A stretch of 64,000 nucleotides of DNA from Natrialba sp. SSL1. Lineage in GTDB: Archaea > Halobacteriota > Halobacteria > Halobacteriales > Natrialbaceae. The notes under the pieces are model-generated. The model worked only from the letters and a program-made list of their open reading frames with translations, did no database searches and was not told where the DNA came from. Shown here one piece after another: positions 1,260 to 41,484 of this stretch. The stretch lies in contig NZ_MASN01000035.1 of the NCBI RefSeq assembly GCF_001861355.1, positions 124,001 to 188,000 on the forward strand, read 5' to 3'. The position numbers were made by a program, and so were the translations under genes. Within the stretch, counting starts at the first letter, position 1, and each line of letters opens with the position of its first letter.

Positions 1260-1574
1260 GTGGCGTTGCTCGTTGCCCCCAACTCTGGGGGCCGCCCATA
1301 TCATTGTTCGGCCCGGATTCGGTCCGTGTGGTCCGGATTTGACCTGTGTTCAGGTCCAGCACCAGGCCGGCACCTCGACTAAGCCACGCCGCTTAGCACC
1401 CTGTTAAAGCCCGAAGACAGCCCACTGCTGCCGTCTGGCCCGTCCCAGCCAGTCCCTGTGCCCTGCTTTTTGTGCCACGTACCGTCCGCACACCGACCCG
1501 AAACAGTTCACGCCAGCACAATTAACGGCTCTATTAGAAAGTGTCCCCGAACGCGAGCGAGAAGTGATCACAGC
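1260..1574. other. Intergenic region, leuS / lipoprotein (divergent)
   Basis: Divergent gap of 315 bases. It holds the promoter of the lipoprotein at 1575 (site at 1522-1539). I see no gene or strong repeat in the rest. A TATA-like CATATC lies about 40 nt upstream of the leuS start but was not analysed further. Confidence 0.5.
1522..1539 (+). promoter_or_regulatory. TTA-10-TATA promoter site of the lipoprotein at 1575
   Basis: TTAACGGCTCTATTAGAA. TTA is followed by a TATA-like core (TATTAG) starting 10 nt after the first T. The core lies about 42 nt before the ATG at 1575. One of 15 sites of the same form. Confidence 0.55.
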
Positions 1575-3476
1575 ATGACGCGTGGACTCTCTCGGCGACA
1601 GTTGGTGGCGGCACTCGGCGTCACGTCGACAGCAACGGTTGCGGGCTGTCTCGATGTACTTTCCGGTGACGAGTCGCCGGAGGCGGACTCCAACGGTGGC
1701 TCCGATTCGAACGGCGACGGAGACGGTGGAAACGGCGACGAGAACGGCACCGATAGCTGGCCCGCAATCGACCACGGCGAACTCCTCTCGGACTTCGAAT
1801 CCGCCGACGAGTGGGTCGCCGTTACCGGCGAAACCGAGACAGTCTCCGACACACCGACGGGGTCGCAAGCGCTCGCTGTCGAGAGCGACGGCGACCAGGC
1901 CGCGATGCGGATCGAGTTCCCCCGCGGGATCGACCTCGACGGCTGGGACACCTCGATGGCGATCCGCGCAGATGCCGTCGACCAGGTCCACCTCGAGTTC
2001 ATGGCGCCGTCGCGGGGCGACCACCTGACCAGTATCCGCCATATCCCGGACGACTACGAGGGTTGGCTCCGCCTCGACTTCGGCTACATCCAGAAGCACG
2101 GCGAGCCGGACCTCTCGGACGTTCGCCGACTGAACGTCGTCGCCGTCGGCCCCGAGGACGGCACCCGACTCGTCGCGGACGACCTCCGCAAGACCGAAGC
2201 AGCCGACAACGGGAAGGCGATCCTCTCGTTCTACGACGGCCACACCTCTCACTACGAACACGCACTCGACCGGCTCGACGAGCGCGACTGGGCCGGCGCA
2301 GTCCCGGTCGACCCGGACCAGATCGGCTCCGGCGGACGGATGGACCTCGTCCAACTCGACGAGCTTCACGAACGCGGCTGGGACATCTGTGGCTACCCGA
2401 GCGTCAGCACGCCGCTGCCGGAGATGCCCGACGACCGCCAGCGACAGGTCGTCGCGAACGTTCGCGACACGCTCGCCGACCTCGGCTTCGAGGACGGCTC
2501 CCGACACTTCTACGCGCCGGCCGATCGGATGGACGCCTCGCTCCAGACCGTCCTCCGGGAGGAAGTCGAGTCCGCGGTCCTCGCCAGCGGCTCGCCGACC
2601 GGTGCGCCGCCGACGAACACCCACATGCTCTCCCAGATCTGGGGGCCAGATCTCCACGGCGGCGTCCGCCGGGCGATCAACCTCTGCGATCAGTACAATC
2701 AGCTTGTCATCCTCCGAATTCCACGCATCGTCGAACTCGAGGACGGTGAGGAAGCGAGCGGGAACAGCATGTCACTCGAGGACTTCGAGGAACTGGTCGA
2801 CCACATCGAGCACCGCGGCCTCGATGTTGTGACACCGTCCGATGTGGCTGACGGGACGATGGGTGGCGATGACGAATCGGACGAGGAGGCAGGCGACCAG
2901 CAGGGCGTCATCCTCGATGCTGGTGAGCACCACTCCTTCGGCGGCATCGACTCGAACACGACCGAGACGTTTGCACTCGAGGAGGGTATCCTCACGGCCG
3001 ACGTCTCGCACGACGGCGATACGGATTTGACCATCGAACTGGTGCCGGCCGGCGACACGAACGGCGACGACCGCGTTATTCCGACGACGAACACGGCGAC
3101 CCGTTCCGGCGAGTCGATCATCACGGTCGAGGACGGAACGTACCAACTCGAAGTCGACGCAGACGGCGCGTGGTCGCTCGACCTGGACCAACCTGAGGTC
3201 CACAGTGACGATCTGACGGCGTTGCCGGCCGACGTGTCGGGGTCGGGCTCCTCCTACGTCGGTCCGTTCGACACCGAGGGCAACGTCTCGCTCGACGTGA
3301 CCCACGACGGTGACGACCTGTTCATGGTCAGCGGCTACGGTGCCGACGGTCGCTCGGAGCAACTGATCCACCAGCACGGCGCGTTCGATAGCTCGCGATC
3401 CTACAGCGCGGGTGGTGCGGTCTGGCTCAACGTCGAGGCGGACGGCGACTGGACGATCGCACTCGGCGATAGCTGA
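1575..3476 (+). CDS. Tat lipoprotein, polysaccharide-deacetylase-like fold, metal site lost (paralog 1)
   Basis: Exported 633-residue lipoprotein. A twin-arginine signal (LSRRQLVAALG) ends in lipobox VAGC, so Cys25 would be lipidated. A Gly/Asp/Asn-rich linker follows (30-62), then a beta-rich domain (about 70-210), a NodB-like barrel (about 213-440), and two copies of a roughly 95-residue beta domain sharing a DGxW ending (about 455-633). In catalytic NodB proteins the first motif is DDG and the second is H-x3-H. Here the first reads FYDG (219-222) and the second is replaced by CGYPS (272-276). It is therefore probably a non-catalytic glycan-binding or scaffold protein. It is one of four related proteins in this window. 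Start chosen at the ATG giving a compact Tat signal; an in-frame ATG at 1458 would add 39 residues with no signal-like features. Confidence 0.85.
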   Translation: MTRGLSRRQLVAALGVTSTATVAGCLDVLSGDESPEADSNGGSDSNGDGDGGNGDENGTDSWPAIDHGELLSDFESADEWVAVTGETETVSDTPTGSQALAVESDGDQAAMRIEFPRGIDLDGWDTSMAIRADAVDQVHLEFMAPSRGDHLTSIRHIPDDYEGWLRLDFGYIQKHGEPDLSDVRRLNVVAVGPEDGTRLVADDLRKTEAADNGKAILSFYDGHTSHYEHALDRLDERDWAGAVPVDPDQIGSGGRMDLVQLDELHERGWDICGYPSVSTPLPEMPDDRQRQVVANVRDTLADLGFEDGSRHFYAPADRMDASLQTVLREEVESAVLASGSPTGAPPTNTHMLSQIWGPDLHGGVRRAINLCDQYNQLVILRIPRIVELEDGEEASGNSMSLEDFEELVDHIEHRGLDVVTPSDVADGTMGGDDESDEEAGDQQGVILDAGEHHSFGGIDSNTTETFALEEGILTADVSHDGDTDLTIELVPAGDTNGDDRVIPTTNTATRSGESIITVEDGTYQLEVDADGAWSLDLDQPEVHSDDLTALPADVSGSGSSYVGPFDTEGNVSLDVTHDGDDLFMVSGYGADGRSEQLIHQHGAFDSSRSYSAGGAVWLNVEADGDWTIALGDS

Positions 3477-3509
3477 CTCTCCGCGATCGCGAAAAACGAC
3501 GTATCCTGC

Positions 3510-5435
3510 CTATCGGTCGGTACCGAGATTCGAAAGGAGACGTGCCGTCACGGTATCGTCAGCAGTAGCCGGTGTCTCGTCGAACGGCCGATCGCCACTG
3601 GTTGTGTCTCGCTGTTGTCCACTGTCGTCCGCCCTCGAACGCTTACTCGACCGCGCCCCCTCCTGGTCGGTACGACTCGTCGTCGTCACATCGATCGTCT
3701 GTGTCTGACTGGTTGCTGGTGCATCCTTCTCGAGTACGTAGTCCTCGAGGACCAGCACGTCGAGGCCCATCCCGTAGAAGTCTTTGACCGCCTCGGTGGG
3801 GGTATTGACGATCGGTTCGCCGTGGTCGTTGAACGAGGTGTTGAGCAGAACCGGGACGTCGGTGATGGCTTCGAACTCGGAGAGTAGACGGTGATAGCGC
3901 GGGTGCTGGTCTTTGCGGACCGTCTGGGGGCGAGTGGTCTCGTCCGCTGGGTGGACCACGGCGGTCAGGTCGTCCGCTTTCTCCGGGTCGACGTCGAAGC
4001 TGTTGATCATGAACGGCGCGGACTGGCCGTCGACGAGGTACTCCGCAGCAGCCTCCTCACGCATCGAGGGGGCGAACGGCCGCCACTCCTCACGGTGCTT
4101 GACGAAGCGGTTGACGCGGTCGCGCGAGGCCGCAGTGCGCGGATCTGCGAGGATACTTCGCGCACCGAGTGCGCGCGGACCGAGTTCCATTCGACCCTGG
4201 AACCAGCCGACGAGCGCGCCGTCTGCCAGCCGTTCGGCGACGTAGCGTTCCAGATCGTCTGGTTCCGCGTACTCGATCTTGTTCGTCTGGAGCTCTGACT
4301 CAATCTCCGCTGCGTCGTACTCGGGGCCGTAGTAGACATCCGAGAGCGGTTCGACGGCCGACGGTCGCTGGCCAACCCAGCCTGCGCCGAGTGCGAGCCC
4401 CGCGTCGTGGGCGACGGGCTGGACGAACAGGTCGTCGACGACGGCGGTCTCCCGGACCGCCTTGTTGAGTTTGCAGTTGAGCGCGACCCCGCCCGCAAGC
4501 GCGACGTTCCCCGAACCGATGCCGGGCGCGTAGGTGCGGACGATGTCCGTGACGATTTCCTGGAGTATCTTCTGTGCCGTGTAGGCCAGGTCCTTCTCCC
4601 ACTGGGTGAACGACTCGGGATCCTCCTTCTGCGTCCGGCCGAACTCCTTCTCGAGGCGCTCGACACCGTAGCCGGTTCCCCAGCGCTTGGTCAGTTCGGT
4701 CACGTCGTACGCCGCACCGGTGTCGATCAGGTTCCGCAGGGTGCGTTCGATCTCGGGATTCTCCTCTCCGTAGGGTGCAAGGCCCATCACCTTCCCCTCG
4801 CCGTTGAACATCCGGTAGCCGAGGAACTCGGTGATGATCGCGAAGAACAGCCCGAGGCTGTTCGGGTGCTCGTAGGTTTTTACGCGCGTGAGCCCACCCT
4901 GGTGACCGCGCCAGATCACCGTCGAGTCGAACTCGCCTTTCGCGTCGATGGTCATAACCAGGGCATCGTCGAACCCCGACGGGTGGAACGCGCTCGCGGC
5001 GTGACAACGGTGGTGCGAAAGCGTCTCGATCGGCGGCACCGGCGTTCCGATCTCCGCCAACCGATTTTCGATCTTCCGCGTCGGCGCGACCTTGCTCTGG
5101 ACTTCCGAAACCAGGGTCTCCTCGAGTGCGGAGAGTTTTCGCGTCACGCCGGGTGCACGGAGGGCGTCACTGATGTAGTGCGAGCGGATTCGAGACCGAA
5201 GTTGCGGATCGTAGGGTAGATAGATCTCGTCGAGATCGGCGAGTTCGAGGTCGCGGTAGTCGAGACAGGCGGTGATCGCGTTCGTCGGAAACGTCTCTGG
5301 GGCGTGTTTCTGGCGCGTGAGCCGTTCTTCCTCGATTCCAAACACCGGCGTTCCGTCCTCGAAGAGCACGGCACTCGGATCGTGCTGGCCGTAGAGACCG
5401 ATCGCCGGTTTGAACGCGAGCGTGTAGTCTCCCAT
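3510..5435 (-). CDS. Carbamoyltransferase, NodU/CmcH family
   Basis: 641 residues from ATG 5435 (MGDYTLAF). Family members transfer carbamoyl from carbamoyl phosphate to a hydroxyl of a sugar or other small molecule in the cytoplasm. Visible are the N-terminal Kae1/YrdC-like half (GIEEERLTRQKH, HHRCHAASAF, metal-site region GEGKVMGLAPYGEE) and the C-terminal domain (GRMELGPRALGARSIL, WRPFAPS, LLNTSFNDHGEPIVNTP). All look intact. The last 70 residues or so are a low-complexity Thr/Ser/Asp tail ending after LEDYVLEKDAP, outside the family core. It converges on the lipoprotein gene (34 bases between stops). Its own promoter site lies 27-44 nt upstream. Its likely role is O-carbamoylation of a surface sugar, inferred from context. 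Confidence 0.93.
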   Translation of the reverse strand: MGDYTLAFKPAIGLYGQHDPSAVLFEDGTPVFGIEEERLTRQKHAPETFPTNAITACLDYRDLELADLDEIYLPYDPQLRSRIRSHYISDALRAPGVTRKLSALEETLVSEVQSKVAPTRKIENRLAEIGTPVPPIETLSHHRCHAASAFHPSGFDDALVMTIDAKGEFDSTVIWRGHQGGLTRVKTYEHPNSLGLFFAIITEFLGYRMFNGEGKVMGLAPYGEENPEIERTLRNLIDTGAAYDVTELTKRWGTGYGVERLEKEFGRTQKEDPESFTQWEKDLAYTAQKILQEIVTDIVRTYAPGIGSGNVALAGGVALNCKLNKAVRETAVVDDLFVQPVAHDAGLALGAGWVGQRPSAVEPLSDVYYGPEYDAAEIESELQTNKIEYAEPDDLERYVAERLADGALVGWFQGRMELGPRALGARSILADPRTAASRDRVNRFVKHREEWRPFAPSMREEAAAEYLVDGQSAPFMINSFDVDPEKADDLTAVVHPADETTRPQTVRKDQHPRYHRLLSEFEAITDVPVLLNTSFNDHGEPIVNTPTEAVKDFYGMGLDVLVLEDYVLEKDAPATSQTQTIDVTTTSRTDQEGARSSKRSRADDSGQQRDTTSGDRPFDETPATADDTVTARLLSNLGTDR

Positions 5436-5461
5436 ACCTCGGTCTTCGAACAGCGTACCCG

Positions 5462-5479
5462 ATACTATGGGGCTGTTAA
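5462..5479 (-). promoter_or_regulatory. TTA-10-TATA promoter site of the carbamoyltransferase
   Basis: On the minus strand TTAACAGCCCCATAGTAT. The core CATAGT ends about 30 nt before the ATG at 5435, so the transcript is probably leaderless or nearly so. Confidence 0.55.
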
Positions 5480-5805: not shown

Positions 5806-5823
5806 TTAGCACGTGTATAGTGA
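5806..5823 (+). promoter_or_regulatory. TTA-10-TATA site upstream of the gene at 6033
   Basis: TTAGCACGTGTATAGTGA. It has the same geometry as the other sites. The ATG at 6033 is about 210 nt downstream, implying a long leader or an unseen small gene. Confidence 0.45.
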
Positions 5824-6032
5824 ACCGCCGAAAGCGAGAACGGTTTTCGTAATGCAACGACTCCAGTATCGCCCGCGACGTCGTGATAGACCGCCTGGGC
5901 CGCAGCCAATGTGTCGGATGCGGCCATACCGCACTGTCGATCGGCTGAGTAACCACTTCGGGACGAGTTCCTCGGTGACCGTTGTGTCCCCAGTGACTCC
6001 AGCGAACACCCGTTCATCACACTGCTAGGACC

Positions 6033-8253: not shown

Positions 8254-10062
8254 CTACTCGACGGTCACACTCTTTGCCAGATTCCGCGGCTTGTCGATCG
8301 GCCGGTCAAGCAGTTCCGCCGCGTGGTAGGAGACGAGCTGGAGCTGCACGTTCGCCAGCAGCCCCGCCCAGACCGGATGCGTTGCCGGCACCGAGAGGTG
8401 CTCGTCCGCCACGTCGACGAGCGCGTGCTCTTCCGGCCCGACCGCGACGATCGGCGCGCCGCGGGACTGCGCTTCGATCGCGTTCGTCTTCGTCTTCTCG
8501 TCGCCGTCACCCGTCACCACTGCAAAGATCGGTGACGCCTCGGTCACCAGCGCCAGCGGCCCGTGCTTGAGCTGTCCCGACGCGAATCCCTCCGCGTGCT
8601 CGTAGGTGATCTCCTTGAACTTCAGCGCGCCCTCGAGTGCCACCGAGTGGCCGAGGCCGTTCCCGATGAAGAAGTACGAGTCACTGTCGAGGGTCTCTTC
8701 GGCGAGGGTCTCCGCGCGGGTGGACTCGAGTACCTGCTCGACGTACTCGGGGAGGTGCTGCAGTTCGGCGAGCATCGCGTCGCGGTCCGCGGCGGGGGTG
8801 GTCTCGGGAACGTCGGCGGCGATGCGCTGGGTGAGCAGCGAGAGGGTGACCGCCTGCGAGGAGTAGGTCTTGGTCGCGGCGACGCCGACCTCGGGACCGG
8901 CGCGGATGTAAACCGCGTCGTCGGCCTCGCGAGAGATGGTCGAGCCGACGACGTTGGTAACGGCGAGCGAGCGTGCGCCGCGGTCGGTCGCGGTGCGGAC
9001 GGCGTCCAGCGTGTCTGCGGTTTCGCCGCTCTGGGTGACCGCGACGACGAGGGTGTTCTCGTCGACGGGGCCGGTCGTCGATTCGTACTCGCTCGCGCGA
9101 ATGACTTCGGTACGGAGGCCGGCCTCGCGAAGCAGCTGTGCGCCGTACATCGCGGCGTGGTAGGAGGTCCCGCAGGCGACGAACTGGACTGTTTCAATGT
9201 CTGCAAATGTGCCCGCTGGCAGGTCTTCGAACGCTACGTCGCCGTCTTCGACCCGCCCCTCGATGGTGTTCGAGAGCGCGGTCGGCTGGTTGTGGATCTC
9301 CTTCAGCATGTAGTGGTCGTACTCGCCCTTGCCGGCATCCTCCGGATCCCAGTCGACGGTGTCGACTTCGCGGTCGACCGGCTGGCCCTCGAGGTCCGTG
9401 ATCCAGTAGGCATTGGGCTCGAGCGTGACCAGGTCGCCGTCCTCGAGGTAGATGACCTCGTCCGTGTGGTCGAGAAACGCCGGCACGTCGCTCGCGAGGA
9501 ACCACTCCTCGTCGTCGAGGCCGAGGACGAGCGGCGAACCCTTTCGGGCCGCGTAGACGCGCTCCTCGCCGTCGACGATCGCGGCGATAGCGTAGCTCCC
9601 TTCGAGCGTGTCGACCGCCTGGCGGACCGCAGCCTCGGTGTCGTCGACGTCGTCGAGGTACTCGGTGATGAGGTGGGGGATGACCTCGGTGTCGGTGTCG
9701 CTCTCGAACTCGTGGCCCTTCGCCTGGAGGTCGGCCTTGAGCTCGTCGTAGTTGTCGATGACGCCGTTGTGGACGACGGCGACGTCGCCGACGGTGTCCG
9801 TGTGGGGGTGTGCGTTCTCGTCGGTTGGCGGCCCGTGGGTCGACCAGCGCGTGTGGCCGATGCCCAGGTTCCCGTGGGGCTGGCCGTCGAGCTGGGACTT
9901 GAGCTCCGAAACCTCGCCCGAGCACTTGTGGACCTTGACGCCGGAGCCGTTCTGGACGGCGATGCCGGCGGAGTCGTAGCCGCGATACTCCAGGTTTTCC
10001 AGGCCGGTGAGCAGGGTATCTGCGGCTTCGCCCTGCCCAATTCGAGCGATGATACCGCACAT
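8254..10062 (-). CDS. glmS: Glutamine-fructose-6-phosphate aminotransferase (isomerizing)
   Basis: 602 residues from ATG 10062, so the mature N terminus exposes the Cys2 nucleophile (MCGIIARIG). It makes glucosamine-6-phosphate from fructose-6-phosphate and glutamine in the cytoplasm, the entry to amino-sugar nucleotides. The Ntn glutaminase domain (GHTRWSTHGPPTDENAHPH, HNGVIDNYDELK) is followed by two SIS domains (TQSGETADT, ATKTYSSQ, SYFFIGNGLGHSVALEGALKFKE) and the conserved C terminus (RPIDKPRNLAKSVTVE). All active-site blocks are intact. Its start codon overlaps the stop (TAATG) of a doubtful upstream frame. It supplies the amino sugar for the dehydrogenase and glycosyltransferases downstream. 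Confidence 0.98.
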   Translation of the reverse strand: MCGIIARIGQGEAADTLLTGLENLEYRGYDSAGIAVQNGSGVKVHKCSGEVSELKSQLDGQPHGNLGIGHTRWSTHGPPTDENAHPHTDTVGDVAVVHNGVIDNYDELKADLQAKGHEFESDTDTEVIPHLITEYLDDVDDTEAAVRQAVDTLEGSYAIAAIVDGEERVYAARKGSPLVLGLDDEEWFLASDVPAFLDHTDEVIYLEDGDLVTLEPNAYWITDLEGQPVDREVDTVDWDPEDAGKGEYDHYMLKEIHNQPTALSNTIEGRVEDGDVAFEDLPAGTFADIETVQFVACGTSYHAAMYGAQLLREAGLRTEVIRASEYESTTGPVDENTLVVAVTQSGETADTLDAVRTATDRGARSLAVTNVVGSTISREADDAVYIRAGPEVGVAATKTYSSQAVTLSLLTQRIAADVPETTPAADRDAMLAELQHLPEYVEQVLESTRAETLAEETLDSDSYFFIGNGLGHSVALEGALKFKEITYEHAEGFASGQLKHGPLALVTEASPIFAVVTGDGDEKTKTNAIEAQSRGAPIVAVGPEEHALVDVADEHLSVPATHPVWAGLLANVQLQLVSYHAAELLDRPIDKPRNLAKSVTVE

Positions 10063-10417
10063 TAGCCGTTCACCTCCGTTACCGCTGCCTGTGGCGACCA
10101 GACGTGCAACCACGTCGATCCCACGTGCCCTCCTGTAGTGAATTGGGTTCGACGACGATGGCGATGACGCTGGCGTTGGCGTTGCTGGTGCCCGTGTTCG
10201 CCGATCGTAGCTGTGTCTTCGGACGCGACACTGCGTTCGGACTCGCCGGTAACCGCGACTCCGCCCGCAACGTTGGTCGTCGCATCCGTCGTAATTCGGC
10301 TCGAGACAGCTGCCCGTGGATCGGTGCTGTTCAGTGTCATGGTTTTGAGCTGCGTGTACCCGTTCCGCCTACACGGCGGATCCGAGCATCTACCCGAAGC
10401 GAATCGTCCTGCAGGCA

Positions 10418-10435
10418 TTACTATAGAGCGAATAA
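10418..10435 (-). promoter_or_regulatory. TTA-10-TATA site facing glmS
   Basis: On the minus strand TTATTCGCTCTATAGTAA. It lies about 355 nt before the glmS ATG, so either glmS has a long leader or a small unrecognised gene lies between. Confidence 0.45.
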
Positions 10436-10800
10436 GACGGTCGTCCTGAGAGACAGACGACGAAGACGTTCCCCAGAACCAGAACGACACGGTCTGAAGC
10501 GGACGATAGTACGCTTCTCGCGGTTCTGTTAGGTGCCCGTCACTCCGCGACGCTTACGTGTCGTCGCCCACTGACGGGTTCTTCGTCGACGGAGTCGTTC
10601 GCACTGTTTCACACAGTACATTCCTGTTTATCAGGCTGGTAAGAGGCTTCTCAGGCAGTTTGTGGAAATCCGTCACCGACCGTTCGGTCAGCGGTCGCTG
10701 CCTCGTAGGTAGTGGACCGAACAGCTCACAACACGGGAGAGAACCAGTGTGTCGCCGTGAACGCGACGAACGGTTTGGCTGGTAGTCCTCTCTATGAAAC

Positions 10801-11013: not shown

Positions 11014-11829
11014 CTACGGCACTGGACTCGAGTTGTCGGTCGCCGTCGACGCGTCCTCACCAATCGGTCGGTCCGGGAGCGAGATCACGTTCTCTCGACC
11101 AACGGAGGTTTTCTCGATCGTGCCGTCGTCGTACATACTCGAGAGGATGCGGCTGACTTTCGACTTCGACCAGTCGGTTTCGTCGGCGATCTGGTGTTGT
11201 CGAATCTGGCCGCCGTGTTTCACGAGCAGCCGGACGACACGTCCTTCGTCGCTGAGTAGCTCTGGTGGTGTGTCAGCGGAGACGAGGTTCTCGTAGGAGC
11301 GTGCCTGGCCGGATTCGGACTCAGTACCGGTTGCTCCGGCGGCTCCGGCAGTGGGTCGTGTCTCTGTGGGTGCGTTCGCATTCGTCTTCGCGGATGCGCT
11401 CGCACGTGCAGCGTTTGCGCCAGCGGGATGCTGTGGGTCTGTTGAACCGGGAGTGGGCGCAGAGCCGGTTCCGGAGCCGGAGCCGGTGCCGGAATCAGCG
11501 CCACCGGTCCGAGTTCCGGTGCCAGTCTGTCGGACAAGCGCTCCGAAATCGTCGACGGAGAACGCTTGCACGACGCGGATACCGACCAGGAGGGCGATCA
11601 TCAGGAACAGAATCGCGATGAGTGACACCTCCCAGGTCGACGCATCACGGATCGTCGACAGCCAGTACGACGATCCTCCTGCCGTTTCGCCCAACCCTGA
11701 GAAGGGTATCGTCGCTTCGACCGTGTACGCGTCGACTGCAGCGGCCGGAACCGAGCCGGTGACGGATTCGGGGCTCCTCACCGATGCGTGCGGTCCGGCG
11801 CTAATCTGGATACTGGGTAGTGGTGCCAT
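11014..11829 (-). CDS. Membrane-anchored winged-helix regulator
   Basis: 271 residues. A short N-terminal part is followed by one transmembrane helix (about 66-88, VSLIAILFLMIALLVGIRVV), a Gly/Thr/Ala-rich linker (about 100-185) and a C-terminal MarR-like winged helix (about 190-255). Key wHTH pieces are LLSDEGRVVRLLVKHGG, QHQIADETDWSKSKVSRIL and DDGTIEKTSVGRENVI. This order is common in haloarchaeal membrane-bound regulators, with the DNA-binding domain inside. It is divergent from the UDP-sugar dehydrogenase operon, so it probably senses an envelope signal and controls that operon (inference). The start is uncertain; the N terminus could be truncated. Confidence 0.85.
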   Translation of the reverse strand: MAPLPSIQISAGPHASVRSPESVTGSVPAAAVDAYTVEATIPFSGLGETAGGSSYWLSTIRDASTWEVSLIAILFLMIALLVGIRVVQAFSVDDFGALVRQTGTGTRTGGADSGTGSGSGTGSAPTPGSTDPQHPAGANAARASASAKTNANAPTETRPTAGAAGATGTESESGQARSYENLVSADTPPELLSDEGRVVRLLVKHGGQIRQHQIADETDWSKSKVSRILSSMYDDGTIEKTSVGRENVISLPDRPIGEDASTATDNSSPVP

Positions 11830-12045: not shown

Positions 12046-12136
12046 GATCTGTCGCCGACATTCTGGCAGAGCGCCAAACCACCCTCGAGAGACGCTAGTA
12101 GCCCACATCTCGTTCCCGTCCGATCACTGCAACAGT

Positions 12137-12154
12137 TTATCAGCGCTATAGTAA
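12137..12154 (+). promoter_or_regulatory. TTA-10-TATA promoter site of the dehydrogenase operon
   Basis: TTATCAGCGCTATAGTAA. It lies about 205 nt before the ATG at 12357, implying a leader of roughly 180 nt. Confidence 0.5.
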
Positions 12155-18256: not shown

Positions 18257-18919
18257 ATGAGTATCGTTGCAGAGTTTTCCGTGAAATCCGATGACTTTGC
18301 GCTGTATCACTCCCTCACCGAGGCTCCGCATATGGTTGTCGAGATCGAGCAGGTCGTGGCGACGATGGAGGATAGGGTGATGCCATACTTCTGGGTGAGC
18401 GGCGGAGATCATGCAGAGTTCGAAGCAGCGTTCGAACAGGATGAATCGGTGACGGACACTACTCCCATCGACGAAGTAGATGGAGCCGTCTTGTACCGTG
18501 CCGAGTGGACGCAGAACGTCGAGACGATCGTCTACGCATACATCGAACTCGGGTCGTCAATCCTGCAAGCGATCGGCAGGGATACGAACTGGGAGCTCCG
18601 GATGCGGTTCGACGACCAGGAAACCCTTTCCCAATTCCAAACGTATTGCAAGGAGAACGACATCTCGTACGAACTCAATCGAATACAGAATCAGGAACAA
18701 CCGATGGCGAGCGCCCAGTACGATCTCACGACAAAGCAACGAAAGACGCTGGTCTCTGCGCTCAAAGAAGGATACTACGAGGTTCCACAGGAGATCTCGA
18801 TGAGCGAACTAGCCGACCAGATGGACGTTTCACAGCAGGCCCTCTCAAAGCGGTTTCACGCTGCACATAAGAACCTCATCACGAGCACTTTGACGTTTAC
18901 CCACCCGGACGATGAATGA
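18257..18919 (+). CDS. HTH_10 (Bat-like) transcriptional regulator
   Basis: 220 residues in the usual haloarchaeal layout. An N-terminal sensor-like region (1-155) contains MSIVAEFSVKSDDFALYHSL and the middle block LQAIGRDTNWELRMRFDDQETLSQF, and is followed by a C-terminal HTH_10 domain (about 165-215, LTTKQRKTLVSALKEGYYEVPQEISMSELADQMDVSQQALSKRF). It binds DNA in the cytoplasm; the ligand is unknown. Monocistronic, with GC-matched codon use. A second member of the same family is at 38748. They are similar in layout but not close copies. Confidence 0.92.
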   Translation: MSIVAEFSVKSDDFALYHSLTEAPHMVVEIEQVVATMEDRVMPYFWVSGGDHAEFEAAFEQDESVTDTTPIDEVDGAVLYRAEWTQNVETIVYAYIELGSSILQAIGRDTNWELRMRFDDQETLSQFQTYCKENDISYELNRIQNQEQPMASAQYDLTTKQRKTLVSALKEGYYEVPQEISMSELADQMDVSQQALSKRFHAAHKNLITSTLTFTHPDDE

Positions 18920-20928: not shown

Positions 20929-21314
20929 ACCGACAACGTGGCTCTCAGAGGGGTTTATTATCACCCTGGTAAGCCCGAATCAGCGGGAAATTCACCCCAC
21001 TCGATGCCCCCGATATACCACAATCTCGACACTGTTATCGGGGAGGGGGAGATCGCTCACACGTGATACTCCTATCCAGCAGAACTATCGAAAATTCGGG
21101 TTTAATTTCTGGAATTATCTCTCCAATATGGCGTGTAATAAAATCCATAGGGATATATTGAATGTCTCGATATCGTGCTTCTGGAGTAGTAATGAGCGAA
21201 TATAAAATGTCATGAAACAGCAATCCGGCTGATGAAACGTCGTGAAACCGAATCAATTGAACTGGTCGGTTTCTACACTTTATTACCCACTCCTGATTAG
21301 GGAAGACTGGCTCG
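20929..21314. other. AT-richer divergent intergenic region
   Basis: 386 bases between the DUF1616 gene and a winged-helix gene. Bases 21060-21300 are markedly richer in A/T than the surroundings, with several TTTAAT/ATATAT-like runs. No conserved protein is encoded. It may be a remnant of acquired DNA or just a large regulatory region. Confidence 0.45.
20955..20972 (-). promoter_or_regulatory. TTA-10-TATA promoter site of the DUF1616 gene
   Basis: On the minus strand TTACCAGGGTGATAATAA. The core is about 30 nt before ATG 20928. Confidence 0.6.
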
Positions 21315-21965
21315 ATGAAAGCGAAACATATCAGCTCGGACGCACAGGAATTGGAGGTACAGTCCGCAGACGAGGCTGAGGAACGTGAGAGCGGTGAGGA
21401 ACCAGCGGATGACGACGAGACGTTCACCGAAGACGAAATATTCCACCTGCTGCAAAACGAACGCAGACGGCTTGTACTCCGCTATCTCCGCGGAACTAAC
21501 GAACCCGTCCGCATGCGTGATGTCGCAGAGCAGGTCGCAGCCTGGGAACACGACACCACCGTCGCCGAACTGACCTCGACACAGCGCCAGCGCGTCTACA
21601 TCCCGCTGTACCAGTCACACCTCTCGAAGCTCGACGAAGCCGGCGTCATCGACTACCAGCAAAACCGCGGCATCGTCGAGCGCAAGCCACTCGCAGATGA
21701 AGTCGACCAGTACCTGCAGGTCACCGAGCAGAACGGGCACATGAACACGCACACGAACGGAAACGCAGAGACCACCACGGACGAGAACGACTCCGCGATC
21801 TCGATCGGTGACGACTACTACATCGGTGCTACCGCAGTCTGTTACGTCGCGCTGCTGGGTGCCGTCTTCGAACTCCCAGTGCTCTCGATTCTCTCGGGAA
21901 TCGGACTGAGCGCCCTAATTCTGTTCCTGTTCACGCTGGTCACCGCCAGCCGATTCATCAATTGA
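21315..21965 (+). CDS. Membrane-anchored DUF7344-type winged-helix regulator
   Basis: 216 residues. An acidic N terminus (to about 38) precedes a winged helix (about 40-130) with DEIFHLLQNERRRLVLRYLRG, MRDVAEQVAAWE and the wing region YIPLYQSHLSKLDEAGVIDYQQNRGIVE, typical of haloarchaeal DUF7344 regulators. A polar linker and two C-terminal helices follow (about 168-190, 191-213). DNA binding would be at the membrane. It converges on a related membrane wHTH gene (21994), 28 bases apart. Confidence 0.9.
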   Translation: MKAKHISSDAQELEVQSADEAEERESGEEPADDDETFTEDEIFHLLQNERRRLVLRYLRGTNEPVRMRDVAEQVAAWEHDTTVAELTSTQRQRVYIPLYQSHLSKLDEAGVIDYQQNRGIVERKPLADEVDQYLQVTEQNGHMNTHTNGNAETTTDENDSAISIGDDYYIGATAVCYVALLGAVFELPVLSILSGIGLSALILFLFTLVTASRFIN

Positions 21966-24624: not shown

Positions 24625-24642
24625 TAACTATGCCGTTGTTAA
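24625..24642 (-). promoter_or_regulatory. TTA-10-TATA site upstream of the asparagine-synthase-like gene
   Basis: On the minus strand TTAACAACGGCATAGTTA. It is about 123-140 nt before ATG 24502, leaving a leader of about 100 nt. Confidence 0.5.
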
Positions 24643-24701: not shown

Positions 24702-24719
24702 CTATCGGATCCATAATAA
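24702..24719 (+). promoter_or_regulatory. CTA-10-TATA promoter site of the deacetylase lipoprotein at 24750
   Basis: CTATCGGATCCATAATAA. The core lies about 35 nt before the ATG at 24750. C replaces the first T of the pattern. Confidence 0.5.
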
Positions 24720-27541: not shown

Positions 27542-27559
27542 TTACTATAGCGCGCGTAA
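27542..27559 (-). promoter_or_regulatory. TTA-10-TATA promoter site of the zinc hydrolase
   Basis: On the minus strand TTACGCGCGCTATAGTAA. The core is about 33 nt before ATG 27512. Confidence 0.6.
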
Positions 27560-30177: not shown

Positions 30178-30195
30178 TTATTATCGAGCTACTAA
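30178..30195 (-). promoter_or_regulatory. TTA-10-TATA promoter site of the GT2 gene
   Basis: On the minus strand TTAGTAGCTCGATAATAA, core about 30 nt before ATG 30150. Together with 30268-30285 it forms a divergent promoter pair within 110 bases. Confidence 0.6.
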
Positions 30196-30267: not shown

Positions 30268-30285
30268 CTAAGAGGTGTATAAGAA
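30268..30285 (+). promoter_or_regulatory. CTA-10-TATA promoter site of the lipoprotein at 30313
   Basis: CTAAGAGGTGTATAAGAA. TATAAG lies about 33 nt before the ATG at 30313. Confidence 0.55.
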
Positions 30286-32966: not shown

Positions 32967-33431
32967 ATGTATTCTCAGCCATACGTGAACGAAGCCGTCG
33001 ATACCGGCCTCCTCGAAGCCGGAGTCGATGCACTCCCGTTTGGCGTTGTTGTACTCGATCACACCGGCGTAATCGTCTACACGAACGAGACGTCTCTGCC
33101 CGCAATACAGGAAGATATCGGGATCGAGACGAGTAGTTTGATCGGTGAGAACTACCTCACTCACTGTCGGCACGCAAACGAACCACACGCCACAGCGATC
33201 GTTTCTGGCCTCGAGGACATCCTCACTAGAGACCGCGAACAGTTCCGACACGAATGTCAGTGTTCGCCGTTTCGCCGGGCTGACGACCGGTTGATCCGTC
33301 TTGACGCGACACCTATCGAATGCGAGAACGACCAGTATGCGGCCGTCTCCCATACGGAATCACGGGTCTCGAGTTCCGTTCGGAGCAAATGGGTTCTGGT
33401 GTCGGTCACAACTGATATGATTCTGCTTTAG
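32967..33431 (+). CDS. PAS-domain fragment
   Basis: 154 residues. A recognisable PAS fold (about 15-125; ALPFGVVVLDHTGVIVYTNET, IGENYLTHC, RRADDRLIRLDATPIECENDQYAAV) has no output domain. The last 25 residues look random and the stop overlaps the end of the opposite flippase gene by four bases. It could be a stand-alone sensor or, more likely, a decayed piece of a larger histidine kinase. Low GC at the start (about 32930-32970) supports a junction. Confidence 0.6.
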   Translation: MYSQPYVNEAVDTGLLEAGVDALPFGVVVLDHTGVIVYTNETSLPAIQEDIGIETSSLIGENYLTHCRHANEPHATAIVSGLEDILTRDREQFRHECQCSPFRRADDRLIRLDATPIECENDQYAAVSHTESRVSSSVRSKWVLVSVTTDMILL

Positions 33432-35068
33432 AGCAGCGCGTTGACCGTCGGGCCGAGGAAGCTCAGTGCGAGCCCAGAGGCGAGCAGTGAGAGGCCGACG
33501 ACGAACAGCAGGCGCTGCAGCCAGCCCCTGGACGAGTCGTTGTCACCGATAGCCGACCGCTCGAGTCGATCGTGAACGGCAGTTGCTTTCGAACCGACCG
33601 GGTCGGGGAAGAGGCCGAGGATTTCGAACGGCTCCGTCGGGTCGAGTGCGCCGACGAGGATCGCGAAGCCGACGAATAGCAGGAAGCCGACCGGCGGGAC
33701 GAGTACGAGGGCGAGAATCGGGTGCGTGATCGCCGCCGAGAGCGCGAAGATCGGTCCACCGGAGAGCACCGCGGCGAGAAGTCCGCGTCCGAGTCGGGCG
33801 TCCGCGAGCGGGTCGAAACCGATCTGACGGGCGCTCACGCAGTGGAAGACGAACATCGAGCCGTAGCCGACGCTCGTCGCGACCGCCGCGCCGTGCATTC
33901 CATAGCGCGGGATCAACAGCGCGTTGAGGATTACGTTGATGAGCGCCGCGACACCGGTTGCGGCGACGGGGTACCTGAGCGTGCCGTTACCCTGCGAGAT
34001 GGCGAGCACCGGTCGCGCGAGCGCGAAGCCGAGCGCGCCGGGAAGCAAGAGCAAGAGCGGCTCGACCGCGGGCACTGCCTCCTCGCCGAAGTAGATCGGG
34101 ACGGCGACATCCGCGAGCGCGGCGAGACCGACTGCCATGATCACCGTCAATAACAGCGTGTAGCGGGTCGTCCGCGAGGCGAGTTCGGTGATCTTCCGGT
34201 GACGGTTCTGCGACCAGAGTTCGGACGTCGAGTGGACGTACACCGTCTGGAGGGCGAGCGGGACGAACCAGAGGAACTCCGCGAGCGTGAGCGCGGCACG
34301 ATAATTCCCGACATCGGCGCTCTCGCGGAATTGCTGGAGCATCACGATGTCGATGTGATAGAGCGACATCAGCAGGAAGACGAGGGCAATGCTCATCGAG
34401 TTGAACGTGAGCATCTTCTTTCGCGGGAAGTCAGAACTGGGCGTGCTGAACACGCAGGAGAGCGAGATCCGACGGTGGACGATGAGCAGTCCGACCGTCG
34501 CAACTAGCAGGCTCGCAAAGAGGTGGCCGGCGAGCGCACCGAGGACGCCAGCGCCGGCGTAGACGAGCGGAATCGCGACGACGACGAAGCCGACCTTGTC
34601 GAGGACCTTCAGCGGCTCGGAGTAGCGCTCGAGTCCGAACCCCATGAGCGTCTTGCGCGCGTAGTCGCGAAACTGCGCGGTGATGACGAGCAGGGCGAGC
34701 GTGTAGAAGTAGATCGCCAGTTCGTCGCCGAACGCGTAACTGACGAGTCCGAACTGGGCGCTTACGAGCAACAGTACTGCGCCCGCAATAGCGAGGATCA
34801 CCGCGAGCCGGAAGTAGTAGCCGACGACGTGTTCGCTCCAGTTGGCCGCGCTTCGATCCTCCGCGAGGAACTTTCGAACCCCGTCCGTGATGCCGGAGCT
34901 CACGAAGATCATGTAGATGGCGAACACCGACATCAGGAAGGAGTAGTCGCCGAATCCCGACGCACCGAGGAACCGGTACAGCAGCGGCGTCGAGAGCGCC
35001 GTGACGATAAGCACGATCACCTTCGTGCTGACGACCGAGAAAATACCACTTGCAATGCTTCTATTCAT
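33428..35068 (-). CDS. Flippase, Wzx/MATE-like polysaccharide export family
   Basis: 546 residues from ATG 35068 (MNRSIASGIFS). About 14 hydrophobic helices spread evenly, as in Wzx/MurJ/MATE-fold lipid-linked oligosaccharide flippases. Visible blocks are GASGFGDYSFLMSVFAIY, RDYARKTLMGFG, DIVMLQQFRESADVGNYRAALTL and ALNVILNALLIPRYGMHGAAVATS. It moves the assembled lipid-linked glycan outward. The N terminus was chosen at the shorter start because the ten residues before it are not membrane-like. Convergent with the PAS fragment; the leader is about 100 nt below its promoter site. Confidence 0.93.
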   Translation of the reverse strand: MNRSIASGIFSVVSTKVIVLIVTALSTPLLYRFLGASGFGDYSFLMSVFAIYMIFVSSGITDGVRKFLAEDRSAANWSEHVVGYYFRLAVILAIAGAVLLLVSAQFGLVSYAFGDELAIYFYTLALLVITAQFRDYARKTLMGFGLERYSEPLKVLDKVGFVVVAIPLVYAGAGVLGALAGHLFASLLVATVGLLIVHRRISLSCVFSTPSSDFPRKKMLTFNSMSIALVFLLMSLYHIDIVMLQQFRESADVGNYRAALTLAEFLWFVPLALQTVYVHSTSELWSQNRHRKITELASRTTRYTLLLTVIMAVGLAALADVAVPIYFGEEAVPAVEPLLLLLPGALGFALARPVLAISQGNGTLRYPVAATGVAALINVILNALLIPRYGMHGAAVATSVGYGSMFVFHCVSARQIGFDPLADARLGRGLLAAVLSGGPIFALSAAITHPILALVLVPPVGFLLFVGFAILVGALDPTEPFEILGLFPDPVGSKATAVHDRLERSAIGDNDSSRGWLQRLLFVVGLSLLASGLALSFLGPTVNALL

Positions 35069-35186
35069 AGAGTAGCCTCCAACATCGCCGATCGCCACTG
35101 CCGATCGCTCCGCTGTCCATCCATCCCATTCGTCGATCGCGCACGATCGGGAGCCACAGTGATCGATCGGTGACGCCGACGGGGCC

Positions 35187-35204
35187 TTATTATACCCAGG
35201 TTAA
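35187..35204 (-). promoter_or_regulatory. TTA-10-TATA promoter site of the flippase gene
   Basis: On the minus strand TTAACCTGGGTATAATAA. It is about 119-136 nt before ATG 35068. Confidence 0.55.
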
Positions 35205-35371: not shown

Positions 35372-35389
35372 TTAACTGACTTATAAGTA
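35372..35389 (+). promoter_or_regulatory. TTA-10-TATA promoter site of the lipoprotein at 35423
   Basis: TTAACTGACTTATAAGTA. The core is about 40 nt before the ATG at 35423. Confidence 0.6.
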
Positions 35390-38747: not shown

Positions 38748-38765
38748 CTACCGATACTCGTCGGG
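38694..38765. repeat. Four tandem 18-bp copies of the gene 3' end
   Basis: Read on the minus strand, each 18-base unit encodes (S/P)-D-E-(Y/C)-(R/P) and then a stop codon. The first copy is the real C terminus of the HTH_10 protein; three more follow after its stop. Stops are at 38748, 38730, 38712 and 38694. Confidence 0.85.
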
Positions 38766-39410
38766 CGTCCGCTCGTCGTCGAGCGTGGCTCCGATTAGCT
38801 CTCCAACCGCACGGCGAAGCCGCTGTGAGACCGCAGAGTCGGTAATATCGAGCTGTTCGGCGAGGTCGTCCTGTGTGACGCCGCGGGGAATGTCGTAGTA
38901 GCCCGCATAGTACGCCATCGAGAGAATCTCGTGTTGTTGCTCGGTCAGAAAGTACGTGCCGTCATCGGAGGCCGAGGACTCGTAGAGTTGGTTCACGCGG
39001 AACGTCATCCCCTGTTCGCGACAGTACTCGCGAAACGCGGCCAGCGTCTCACGGTTCGGGAAGTGAACGCGGGCGTCCCAGCCGCCGTCGCCGCTCGTGA
39101 TCGTAAAGACGAACAGTCCCCGTTCGGCACAGCGCTCGGGAACCAGGTGCCGGTCCGTCTCGACGCGAACGCGGTAGATCGCTCGGTTCTCGAACGTCGC
39201 GATACAGGCGGGATCCGAGACCGTTGGATCCGCTTCCATCGTTGCCTCGAGATGGTCGTACTCGTCAGTAAAGACCGAGACGAAGTACGTCATCGTCTCC
39301 GCAGTTTCAACCTCGTACTCGTACCTGATCGTCACGTCCGGATGATGATCGATCGTTGGCGCGAGCACGAGTTCGTCGTGAGCGACGTAGATCTCTGCGA
39401 TGAACCCCAT
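38748..39410 (-). CDS. HTH_10 (Bat-like) transcriptional regulator
   Basis: 220 residues. An N-terminal region (MGFIAEIYVAHDELVLAPTI, MTYFVSVFTDEYDHLEATM, the middle block ITSGDGGWDARVHFPNRETLAAFREYC) precedes a C-terminal HTH_10 domain (about 158-210, LTEQQHEILSMAYYAGYYDIPRGVTQDDLAEQLDITDSAVSQRLRRA). It binds DNA; the effector is unknown. The gene ends with the repeated SDEYR-stop module. Its own promoter site matches the pattern of the glycan genes, so it may be a co-regulated or autoregulating controller of the locus (inference). Confidence 0.93.
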   Translation of the reverse strand: MGFIAEIYVAHDELVLAPTIDHHPDVTIRYEYEVETAETMTYFVSVFTDEYDHLEATMEADPTVSDPACIATFENRAIYRVRVETDRHLVPERCAERGLFVFTITSGDGGWDARVHFPNRETLAAFREYCREQGMTFRVNQLYESSASDDGTYFLTEQQHEILSMAYYAGYYDIPRGVTQDDLAEQLDITDSAVSQRLRRAVGELIGATLDDERTPDEYR

Positions 39411-39450
39411 GGCGGTCTCTGTTCGAACGACTGTCGGTTTCGCGACCCCA

Positions 39451-39468
39451 TACTTATCGTGTGTCTAA
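39451..39468 (-). promoter_or_regulatory. TTA-10-TATA promoter site of the HTH_10 gene
   Basis: On the minus strand TTAGACACACGATAAGTA. The core is about 45 nt before ATG 39410. Confidence 0.5.
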
Positions 39469-39506
39469 GTCGATTGTAGCGGCTGGAACTGTCTGATTCG
39501 ACTGTC

Positions 39507-41327
39507 TCAGTTCATGTACCCCAGGTCCGCGAGTCGTTCCGTGACGTCGTCGTCGGCCTCGGGGCGGTCGCGTTCGGTTTCGGTTCTGTCTTCGGCAGTT
39601 CGTTCTCGATCTCCTGTCTCGTCCGCCCCGTCTCGCTCTCGCTCTCGGTTTCGGCCTCGGTCTACGGCACCGACGCCACTGTAGGGAGGATACTCGATCG
39701 CCTCGGTTGGGTCGACGGCTGGCACGACCTCGCCGTCCATCCGCTCGCTGGTGGGAACGCCCATCGCGGCCAGCACGGTCGGGGCAACGTCGAAGAGGTG
39801 CGCGCGGTCGATCGCAGCCGTCTCGTCGATCCCCTCTCCCGCGGCGACGAAGATTCCGTCGAGCTTGTGATTCCACGGCTCGACCGGACCGAAGTAGCCG
39901 TCTGCATCCTCTCGGAACTGCTCTGAAAGCGCGTGTTCGAAATCGGCCGGAATCGTCACGATGTCGACCGTTTCCTCGACGTTTTCGCCGTGGAAGTACT
40001 CCTCGCGAGGCGCGACCGTCTCGAAGAACGGTTCGCCGTCCGGTGTCTCGACACCGCGCAACGTCTCCATGAGTTCCTCTCGGAGGTCCTCGTACTCCGC
40101 GGGCGGAACGACGCCCATCGGTTCGCGTCCCTCGAGGTTGATCCGAACGCCAAGTTCCGTCCGGGCGCGAACGTAGGCCTTCGATTCCCCGAAGTCCACC
40201 TGCTCGTTCGCCGTCCGAGAGACGCCGCTCGGTGCGTACTTGATTGCCAGCTCCGCGAGGCCGACGCGCTCGAGTATCGTCCGAATCCGGCTGGCGGTAA
40301 TGCCGAACTGCGCGGCGACGGAGGCCACGCGGGCGACCGTTCCCGGCTCCCAGGTGTCGTACTCCTCGCCCTCGCGGAGTCGCCGCCGCATCGGCGTCCA
40401 GGAGGGCATCCCTTTTCCGCCCGTAGTCGTCTCGAGGAACCCCTCGTCGCGCAGGAACTCGTTGAGCCGGAACTCGTAGCCCTCGTAGGGACCCATACCG
40501 TGGTCACTCACGAGGAAGACGCGGTCTGGGTCGCAGTCCTCGAGCACCTGCGCGATCGCCTCGTCGGTCGCCTCGTAGACGGCGTTCACCTTGTCCTCAG
40601 CGCCCGCAAACTCGTGGAACACCGTGTCCGTCTTCTGGAACTGCAGAAATCCAAAGTCGGGGTCGTACTCGTCCGCGAGATAACGAAACGCGTCGCCGCG
40701 CATTCGGACCAGCCGCTGGTACTCGTCGATCTTCGCCGACTCTGACACCGAGTCGTCATCACGGGTGTAGTTCGGATACACCCGATACTCGCCGATTTCG
40801 TCGCGCACGTCGTCGAGCAGCCCCGCTGGGTGACACGGCGGATCCTCCGGCCCGAGGAAGCCGGGAATCACCGCGCCGTCGAACTCGTCCGGCGGGTGTG
40901 TGACCGGCGCGTTGACGACGACACTCGAGTGCCCCTGCTGGTCGAGCAGGGTCCACAGTGGGTGTGCGTCGACGTCGTCGTTGCTGGTGACGTGCCAGTC
41001 GTAGCCGTCGTAGCCGACGAAGCCGATCGCGCCGTGTTTGCCGGGGTTCTGGCCGGTGTAGACCGACGGCCAGGCGCTCGGCGTCCACGGCGGAATCTGG
41101 GACTCGAGTGGTGCGGTGAGCCCGTCGGTACAGAGACGTTCGATCGTCGGGATACGGCCCTCCTCGAATAGGCGCTCGAAGACCGGCAGACAGCCTGCGT
41201 CGATACCGATGACGAGGGTGTCGAGCGAACTCGTCGATGCTGACGTCGAGTCCGGTTCGCCGTCGATCTTCGGAGGTGATTCCTGTGCGTTCGATGCTGT
41301 CTCGTCGCTGCGGGACGTCCGACTCAT
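39507..41327 (-). CDS. Alkaline-phosphatase-superfamily phosphodiesterase
   Basis: 606 residues. The fold is that of type I phosphodiesterase/nucleotide pyrophosphatases. Visible are the first metal site VIGIDAGC, the nucleophile region PPWTPSAWPSVYTGQNPGKHGAIGF (Thr/Ser), DHGMGPYEGYEFRLNEFL and FDVAPTVLAAMGVP. The Ser/Thr-rich N terminus (1-35) and Arg/Glu/Asp-rich C-terminal tail (about 550-590) are low complexity. No signal peptide is present, so it is cytoplasmic. It may remove or exchange phosphate-linked groups on a glycan or lipid (inference). It ends the glycan locus. Confidence 0.9.
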   Translation of the reverse strand: MSRTSRSDETASNAQESPPKIDGEPDSTSASTSSLDTLVIGIDAGCLPVFERLFEEGRIPTIERLCTDGLTAPLESQIPPWTPSAWPSVYTGQNPGKHGAIGFVGYDGYDWHVTSNDDVDAHPLWTLLDQQGHSSVVVNAPVTHPPDEFDGAVIPGFLGPEDPPCHPAGLLDDVRDEIGEYRVYPNYTRDDDSVSESAKIDEYQRLVRMRGDAFRYLADEYDPDFGFLQFQKTDTVFHEFAGAEDKVNAVYEATDEAIAQVLEDCDPDRVFLVSDHGMGPYEGYEFRLNEFLRDEGFLETTTGGKGMPSWTPMRRRLREGEEYDTWEPGTVARVASVAAQFGITASRIRTILERVGLAELAIKYAPSGVSRTANEQVDFGESKAYVRARTELGVRINLEGREPMGVVPPAEYEDLREELMETLRGVETPDGEPFFETVAPREEYFHGENVEETVDIVTIPADFEHALSEQFREDADGYFGPVEPWNHKLDGIFVAAGEGIDETAAIDRAHLFDVAPTVLAAMGVPTSERMDGEVVPAVDPTEAIEYPPYSGVGAVDRGRNRERERDGADETGDRERTAEDRTETERDRPEADDDVTERLADLGYMN

Positions 41328-41466
41328 CGTATCATTCGTAGGGTTCTGAGAGAGTGGTTCGGCGACGACAGCGGCCGGCCACGCTGGCCGACTGCAGTTG
41401 CAGCCGCTGTCGCTGTCCGAGCTGTCCGTGCACGTGTCTTGGTCAGCGAGAAGCAGACGAGACTCT

Positions 41467-41484
41467 TCATTATCGGTTTGTTAA
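41467..41484 (-). promoter_or_regulatory. TTA-10-TATA promoter site of the phosphodiesterase gene
   Basis: On the minus strand TTAACAAACCGATAATGA. It is about 140-157 nt before ATG 41327. Confidence 0.5.

Follow-up and report, generated by a model that had tools for sequence, protein, structure and literature searches.

An 18-nt element, YTA-N7-BATAD, recurs across a glycan gene region in the window analysed here, which is the whole 64-kb stretch of DNA (G000:C35:124001-188000) from the 4.58-Mb genome of a haloarchaeon of the Natrialbaceae. The element was confirmed to be real and to mark units of the glycan locus. Co-regulation of these units by the element is well supported by comparison of sequences within and between genomes, and from the same comparisons we infer which protein could bind it and in which direction it could act. 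The region from 3510 to 42331 encodes a carbamoyltransferase, glmS (identified at equivalog level), a UDP-glucose/GDP-mannose dehydrogenase, DUF354 and other glycosyltransferases, together with a DUF1616 protein, polysaccharide deacetylases, a flippase and a phosphodiesterase-like protein. On this content of glycan, sugar-nucleotide and export genes, it is annotated as a surface-polysaccharide locus.

The element in the window and its target genes

Of the 15 sites listed in the initial annotation, 14 fit YTA-N7-BATAD where they had been placed and the one at 1522 does not. The pattern has 18 matches in the window, all of them within positions 1-42400 and intergenic by our gene calls (gene starts were taken from our own simple codon-usage gene caller), and none in the part from 42400 to 64000. 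Four matches lie beyond the listed sites, at 10625(-), 12134(-), 22696(-) and 24699(-), with 12134 and 24699 being opposite-strand readings of the near-palindromic sites 12137 and 24702. The earlier observation that many cores lie shortly before an ATG was borne out, as 10 of the 14 fitting sites have some ATG 33-48 nt downstream of the start of the core; at 10418, this nearby ATG is not the glmS start.

For comparison with other genomes, a protein profile of DUF7344, a candidate regulator encoded in the locus, was used to fetch 77 distinct named loci from many haloarchaeal genera, DUF7344 being present there by construction. Orthologs of the window's genes in the fetched regions were scored for a motif between -330 and +40 with a slightly looser pattern, and the ortholog counts given below include two regions twice (G005 = L190, G007 = L146). 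The numbers of minus-strand sites refer to the left end of the 18-mer.

5462..5479 (-), TTAACAGCCCCATAGTAT: carbamoyltransferase gene 3510-5435(-), with the core 34 nt upstream of its ATG
5806..5823 (+), TTAGCACGTGTATAGTGA: G009 and G015 have sites ending TATAGTGA at the equivalent position
10418..10435 (-), TTATTCGCTCTATAGTAA: glmS unit; upstream motif in 41/43 glmS orthologs
12137..12154 (+), TTATCAGCGCTATAGTAA: UDP-glucose/GDP-mannose dehydrogenase operon; near-palindromic, the other strand matching at 12134; 43/57 orthologs
20955..20972 (-), TTACCAGGGTGATAATAA: core 34 nt before the DUF1616 gene; 34/42 orthologs
24625..24642 (-), TTAACAACGGCATAGTTA: asparagine-synthase-like gene 22778-24502(-); 41/58 orthologs
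24702..24719 (+), CTATCGGATCCATAATAA: polysaccharide deacetylase-like gene, with the core 38 nt upstream; 39/40 orthologs
27542..27559 (-), TTACGCGCGCTATAGTAA: upstream of the AstE/AspA-PKD gene; 9/23 orthologs
30178..30195 (-), TTAGTAGCTCGATAATAA: core 35 nt before a family-2 glycosyltransferase gene (GT2a); 51/54 orthologs
30268..30285 (+), CTAAGAGGTGTATAAGAA: core 35 nt before gene 30313-31605 (sec430), which has no Pfam match and, by eye, a lipoprotein-like start; 28/32 orthologs
35187..35204 (-), TTAACCTGGGTATAATAA: polysaccharide flippase gene 33428-35098(-); 20/35 orthologs
35372..35389 (+), TTAACTGACTTATAAGTA: core 41 nt before the second polysaccharide deacetylase gene; 1/9 orthologs scored (G018)
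39451..39468 (-), TTAGACACACGATAAGTA: HTH_10/BAT regulator gene 38748-39410(-), with the core 48 nt upstream of its start; G009, G015 and G018 have similar sites
41467..41484 (-), TTAACAAACCGATAATGA: phosphodiesterase-like gene 39507-41327(-); 6/8 orthologs
1522..1539 (+), TTAACGGCTCTATTAGAA: no fit, TATTA instead of BATA; excluded from the members

The motif was also found before orthologs of glmM (6/8). Among internal operon genes it was found at none of 53 DUF354, 51 GT1 and 15 ATP-grasp orthologs and at 1 of 46 orthologs of a 658-aa protein, although the zero counts are weaker than they appear, since the sequence upstream of internal genes is coding and depletes a motif that holds stop codons. 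The first genes of units carry the element and internal genes do not.

The matches exceed chance. First-order Markov sequences for the same 8401 intergenic bp gave 0.98 +/- 0.94 matches (300 runs, maximum 5) compared with the 18 real ones. An equal frequency elsewhere, named in the initial annotation as an outcome that would tell against the pattern, was not found; the intergenic rate was 2.14 per kb in the locus and ten times lower in a 796-kb sample of this genome (0.20 per kb). A tighter pattern, YTAN7BATARKWR, had 36 matches genome-wide, 11 of them in the locus (binomial p about 1e-14), but it was fitted to the window sites, and the independent evidence comes from other genomes. Among the 18 intergenic BATARKWR cores in the locus, TTA was present at offset 10 in nine and at none of the other 21 offsets (3-24), whereas 90 cores outside the locus had no offset preference, with three at offset 10 and equal numbers at 17 and 22. 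The mirror pattern, read backwards, had 110 matches genome-wide compared with 36 for the motif. It was not used as a control because the motif holds stop codons, so that coding sequence depletes the motif and not its mirror; a spacer one base longer (N8) and the offset profile were used instead.

It had been suggested that the motif should be looked for before other surface-glycan genes, and it proved not to be confined to the locus, as it also precedes glmM and a few other genes. In the window's own genome, glmM (C35:415659) has a motif 33 nt upstream; this gene belongs to a second glm island (G000:C35:405000-419000; L051, L052), which also contains glmS, glmU-like, HTH_10 paralog and phosphodiesterase-like genes. 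Such glm islands with motif sites were also found in G010-G012 and partly in G008, all of which lack a close DUF7344.

Fixed spacing and anatomy of the element

The exact spacing of 10 nt between the two halves, noted in the window at the outset, recurs in other families. With only the core BATARTAA as bait, the 39 loci of the window's family yielded 225 cores, of which 166 had TTA at offset 10 and no more than 4 had it at any other offset (3-30); in the 38 loci of other families, 85 of 117 cores had it at offset 10 and no more than 2 at any other. One locus (L190, Haloarchaeobius, the same region as G005) was counted in the family, and the numbers become 162/221 and 89/121 if it is counted among the other families. 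At least one strict motif was found in 65 of the 77 loci and none in 12, and 27 of the 38 loci outside the family carry one. Across the whole genomes of 125 family members, the N7 pattern matched 976 times and the N8 control 249 times. The loci come from related species, and these counts are not independent events. There were 167 different spacers among 246 distinct sites, therefore TTA and ATARTAA are kept while the spacer drifts. The recurrence of the exact spacing across genera suggests that the locus is probably switched as one unit.

A profile of the 246 sites was characterised by G at -2 (0.65), C or T at -1 (0.82), TTA, and Y at positions 3 (0.72) and 4 (0.93), followed by loosely conserved bases, then B-ATA-R-TAA and W at 18. 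TTA, ATA and TAA were imposed by the search pattern, which left the flanks, the Y positions and the offset profile free. TTAYY and RRTAA form an inverted repeat, and two window sites fit the loose pattern on both strands. The element resembles a loose dyad, TTAYY-N8-RRTAA, in which the TATA-like box would be the right arm. The initial annotation had proposed an activator site beside a TATA box, of which the promoter element with fixed spacing stands, but the arrangement looks more like a dyad with its right arm fused to a TATA-like box.

The first ATG of an open reading frame (ORF) of at least 80 codons lies within 15-62 nt of the core start at 114 of the 246 sites (92 at 33-38 nt and 22 others), with a peak at 35 nt (47/246); at 99/246 sites it is beyond 70 nt and at 33/246 there is no such ATG. 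Long leaders are typical for glmS, the dehydrogenase and the asparagine-synthase-like gene. In the window, a small ORF (10062-10340 (-), 92 aa from its first ATG) lies between the motif and glmS, and overlaps the glmS start with its stop. Among 42 glmS leaders with the motif, 36 carry an ORF of at least 20 codons that ends at most 25 nt from the glmS start, which may point to a leader peptide or translational coupling. There were no matches in Rfam at gathering scores in positions 1-43000 of the window.

Ordinary promoters in a 796-kb sample of the genome follow the usual haloarchaeal layout: relative to the ATG, they have A at -34/-33, a T-rich box at -30 to -26 and A at -11/-10. In the motif promoters, AA is present in the 7 nt upstream of the core at 18 of 246 sites, compared with 57 of 120 other promoters with a TATA-like box (18/246 and 61/120 if 8 nt are taken); these 120 were the upstream regions, from 463 in the genome sample, that had a TATA-like box by our own rule. 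The usual B recognition element (BRE) is mostly missing from motif promoters.

Candidate regulators and alternative explanations

We propose that the 18-mer could be an operator embedded in the promoters of one regulon, which would make and export a surface polysaccharide containing amino sugars and uronic acids. The regulon would take in glmS and the sugar-nucleotide dehydrogenase of the locus, and glmM about 0.25 Mb beyond it. A dimeric winged-helix protein would read the dyad TTAYY-N8-RRTAA, the right arm of which would double as the TATA-like box. As the motif promoters are mostly without the usual BRE, the bound protein would probably be an activator that helps to place the TATA-binding protein (TBP) and transcription factor B (TFB). 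The binder could be DUF7344, DUF7343 or both, as suggested by their linkage to the cluster; this step is less certain than the dyad.

21315..21965 (+): DUF7344 protein, 216 aa; Pfam PF24035, E 5.7e-30; leading candidate regulator
11014..11829 (-): DUF7343 protein, 271 aa; Pfam PF24034, E 4.2e-29; candidate partner regulator

The closest named relatives of the window's DUF7344 gene are in Natrialba species, N. hulunbeirensis first. Its AlphaFold model has a well predicted winged helix (about residues 38-134) and two C-terminal helices of lower confidence, which are hydrophobic by eye. In a fold comparison it resembled HxlR/DUF24, ArsR-type and RosR structures (Z about 9-10.5, 7-19% identity); Foldseek returned no match at E <= 0.001 (best E 0.07), and NCBIfam had no name for it. 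In the DUF7343 protein of the window, a single hydrophobic segment is visible by eye and the C-terminus is a MarR-like winged helix, also matched by MarR_2 and IclR, whose stretch WSKSKVSR hardly varies among 11 sequences. Eight of the aligned orthologs are longer (414-502 aa) and carry DTDGDGL-type repeats, and the model of one of the DUF7343 orthologs (L169) consists of a beta-sandwich, the repeats, a helix (332-354), a disordered linker and a winged helix (408-465). The repeats resemble thrombospondin type 3 (TSP3) repeats in the DTDGDGL pattern and in NCBIfam matches far below the cut-off, and they may bind calcium. Both proteins look like membrane-anchored winged-helix regulators, with putative transmembrane segments judged by eye to be hydrophobic and, for DUF7343, also suggested by the position of helix 332-354 of the L169 model, between the outer domain and the linker. 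As DUF7343 often has an outer part, the state of the envelope could set transcription straight from the membrane. No mention of DUF7343, DUF7344 or DUF7345 was found in the literature searched, which leaves out most subscription papers and all bioRxiv preprints.

The association of these genes with the motif was seen in two sets of genomes. Among the 125 family genomes, the 83 with a close DUF7344 (E below 1e-41) have 6-18 strict motifs (mean 10.39; N8 control 2.30) and the other 42 have 0-8 (mean 2.71; N8 control 1.38). This threshold (about 1e-41) was chosen after viewing the lists, the nearest case being G005 (8.9e-42). The second set was a class sample of 44 genomes chosen irrespective of the regulator, 10 of the family and 34 others, in which a motif cluster was defined as at least two motifs within 20 kb, a rule also set after viewing the lists. 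The distribution was patchy, with clusters in eight of these genomes, of which six belong to the family and two to a single other genus. These eight are the eight with DUF7344 at E <= 2.3e-74, in each case inside the cluster, and the best DUF7344 match in the other 36 (1.6e-56) is at the level of further paralogs in cluster genomes. DUF7343 is in or beside the cluster in all eight; in G122 the cluster is in two parts, with DUF7344 in one and DUF7343 in the other. In the fetched loci, DUF7343 was found within the 10-kb flank of 52 of 65 motif loci compared with 1 of 12 motif-less loci, and the DUF7344 and DUF7343 genes adjoin in loci of Haloferax, Halobellus, Halogranum and Haloprofundus.

Several observations weigh against activated dyad promoters read by DUF7344 or DUF7343. 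The dyad is imperfect, as the flank at -2/-1 does not pair with that at 18/19. A small excess of N7 over N8 matches is kept in the 42 genomes that lack a close DUF7344 (2.71 vs 1.38, Wilcoxon p 2e-4), single motifs persist before glmM in two of them (G011, G012), and G010 and G008 keep other sites; if these motifs are functional, another protein, perhaps a paralog, must therefore read them. Outside the family, clusters occur in only 2 of 34 class-sample genomes, both of one genus, and 22 of the 36 class-sample genomes without clusters also have DUF7343 matches. Thirteen of the 65 motif loci lack a DUF7343 within 10 kb, although DUF7343-like copies exist in all 13 genomes, four of them apparently at most 7 kb from the locus end (contig identity inferred). 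The DUF7344 gene itself has an upstream motif in only 1 of 46 cases. Because the regulator genes lie in the cluster, co-occurrence cannot split a binder from a passenger, or DUF7344 from DUF7343.

Taken as a whole, the operator-regulon reading, with activated dyad promoters and DUF7344 or DUF7343 as binder, stands at close to even chances, if anything slightly below. The part of it that had been proposed at the outset, co-regulation of the whole locus, is supported by the exact spacing, the conservation across families, the placement at first genes and the association with clusters. A fuller version, in which DUF7344 would be paired with DUF7343, the beta-sandwich and calcium-repeat-like domain of the latter lying outside, and the two would control a multi-genus glycan regulon from the membrane through a dyad fused to a BRE-less TATA box, so that the envelope or divalent-ion state would set expression of the pathway, is put forward only tentatively.

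The same site and regulon could also be explained if the dyad were a repressor operator, with the protein covering the TATA-like box until a signal releases it. Operators over the TATA box or BRE are typical for archaeal repressors, which was counted for this possibility, and here the right arm of the dyad falls on the TATA-like box. HxlR/DUF24- and ArsR-type repressors are among the best fold matches of DUF7344. However, the BRE is missing from most motif promoters, which speaks for promoters that need activation and not for strong promoters under repression, and we consider repression unlikely, though a serious contender.

It is improbable that the element marks promoters of a special basal factor, a TFB or TBP paralog, in place of a classical regulator site. 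It is true that ATARTAA is unlike the haloarchaeal TTWT and that most motif promoters lack the CGAAA BRE, but TTA lies outside the normal BRE position, and the dyad symmetry and the link to a single locus suit a dimeric regulator better than a basal factor.

Two HTH_10/BAT regulators are also encoded in the locus.

38748..39410 (-): HTH_10/BAT regulator (Bat family); preceded by a motif, 48 nt from its start
18257..18919 (+): second HTH_10/BAT regulator

Binding of the element by the Bat-type regulator 38748-39410, or by a member of its family, would fit its position in the locus, the motif before its own start and the HTH_10 paralog that lies near glmM sites elsewhere. Nevertheless, 11 of the 83 cluster genomes are without a close ortholog and still average 10.64 motifs. 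One of the motif-rich genomes, G005, has nine motifs and no match to this regulator better than 3.6e-21 in the genome, and tblastn at E 1e-3 found none in stretches of 55 kb (G005), 40 kb (G086) and 40 kb (G120). A distant HTH_10 homolog (38-41% identity) is present in the cluster stretch in 3 of the 11 (G001, G006, G099). The regulator therefore seems not to be required for motif clusters, and its role as the binder, weakened by these motif-rich genomes in spite of the distant homologs, is distinctly improbable. HTH_10 presence within +-10 kb was set aside as a measure, because the window gene lies farther from DUF7344 than this flank. For the second regulator, no matching gene was found among those called in the clusters listed from relatives, and it seems to be a local addition.

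Chance combined with selection by eye, a concern since the pattern had been noticed after seeing examples, is refuted by the recurrence of offset 10 in loci of other families, and the motif was also found in the class sample chosen irrespective of the regulator, which makes this explanation virtually excluded.

Other occurrences and relation to known systems

Some matches precede genes of other kinds. In the window's own genome, one match lies 17 nt before an acyl-CoA-dehydrogenase-like gene (named by eye). On another contig of the genome (L124:8917-10031, G000:C39), the motif CTACTCGATGCATAATAA is 40 nt before a TrmB-like gene (named by eye). Apart from these two and the glmM site, the matches outside the locus look incidental. 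Relative to the TrmB-like gene's motif, 18-mers differing in the first base were found in G015:C6 and G017:C1. In Haloferax and Halobellus (L185:13251-17584, L171:13016-17285), a motif precedes a block that opens with a MoxR-like ATPase gene (by eye) followed by membrane proteins; resembling blocks are present in G001, G005 and G006. In L009 and L010, copies of a single gene (MEYSHRYPAYPTQQV...), probably a mobile element, each have a motif-like match 95 nt upstream, and these two matches are likely to be incidental.

To our knowledge, little is known about the archaeal control of surface polysaccharides. The word stem 'regulator' is absent from the main text of a paper on a Haloarcula exopolysaccharide (PMC9943897). 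The 18-nt element was not described among the matches listed in our literature search, in a literature without most subscription papers and all bioRxiv preprints.

The canonical haloarchaeal promoter consists of a BRE (CGAAA), a TATA box (TTWT) and a -10 WW (PMC4983044). The motif promoters would be similar in having a TATA-like box about 30 nt before the start, but here the box is ATARTAA, the BRE-like A-tract (CGAAA) is mostly absent and a fixed TTAY lies one helical turn upstream. In the CsmR regulon of Haloferax volcanii (PMC13286277), the site TATCA-N4-TGATA lies upstream of the BRE/TATA. Both systems would share a semi-palindromic site at a fixed place by the core promoter, common to cell-surface genes. 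The consensus of the 246 sites does not contain TATCA-N4-TGATA; here the dyad is TTAYY-N8-RRTAA and one arm would be inside the TATA-like box.

As for the candidate regulators, RosR of Halobacterium salinarum (6qfd) has a winged-helix fold like that of DUF7344 (Z 10.0, rmsd 3.0, 90 residues), but the identity is 9% and a common fold is silent on the binding site. ArnR and ArnR1 of Sulfolobus acidocaldarius are described as membrane-bound one-component regulators of surface-structure genes (PMC6396743), and transmembrane transcription regulators (TTR; PMC10269533) are likewise membrane-bound one-component regulators, a feature that the candidate pair would share. A predicted DNA-binding domain, as in a TTR, is present in DUF7343 (PF24034, MarR_2/IclR; winged helix 408-465 in the L169 model). 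ArnR and ArnR1 differ in phylum and in targets, and here a putative regulator pair of winged-helix proteins, with TSP3-like repeats in DUF7343, is linked to a glycan cluster.

A regulon with a shared operator is of a known kind, and the fusion of the operator with a TATA-like box and the probable membrane-anchored regulators would be what is unusual. If an operator arm takes the place of the usual TATA/BRE layout in a class of promoters, this would inform our understanding of archaeal initiation. With a precise cis element that spans genera, a list of targets and two candidate regulators, the question of how such polysaccharides are controlled has become testable.

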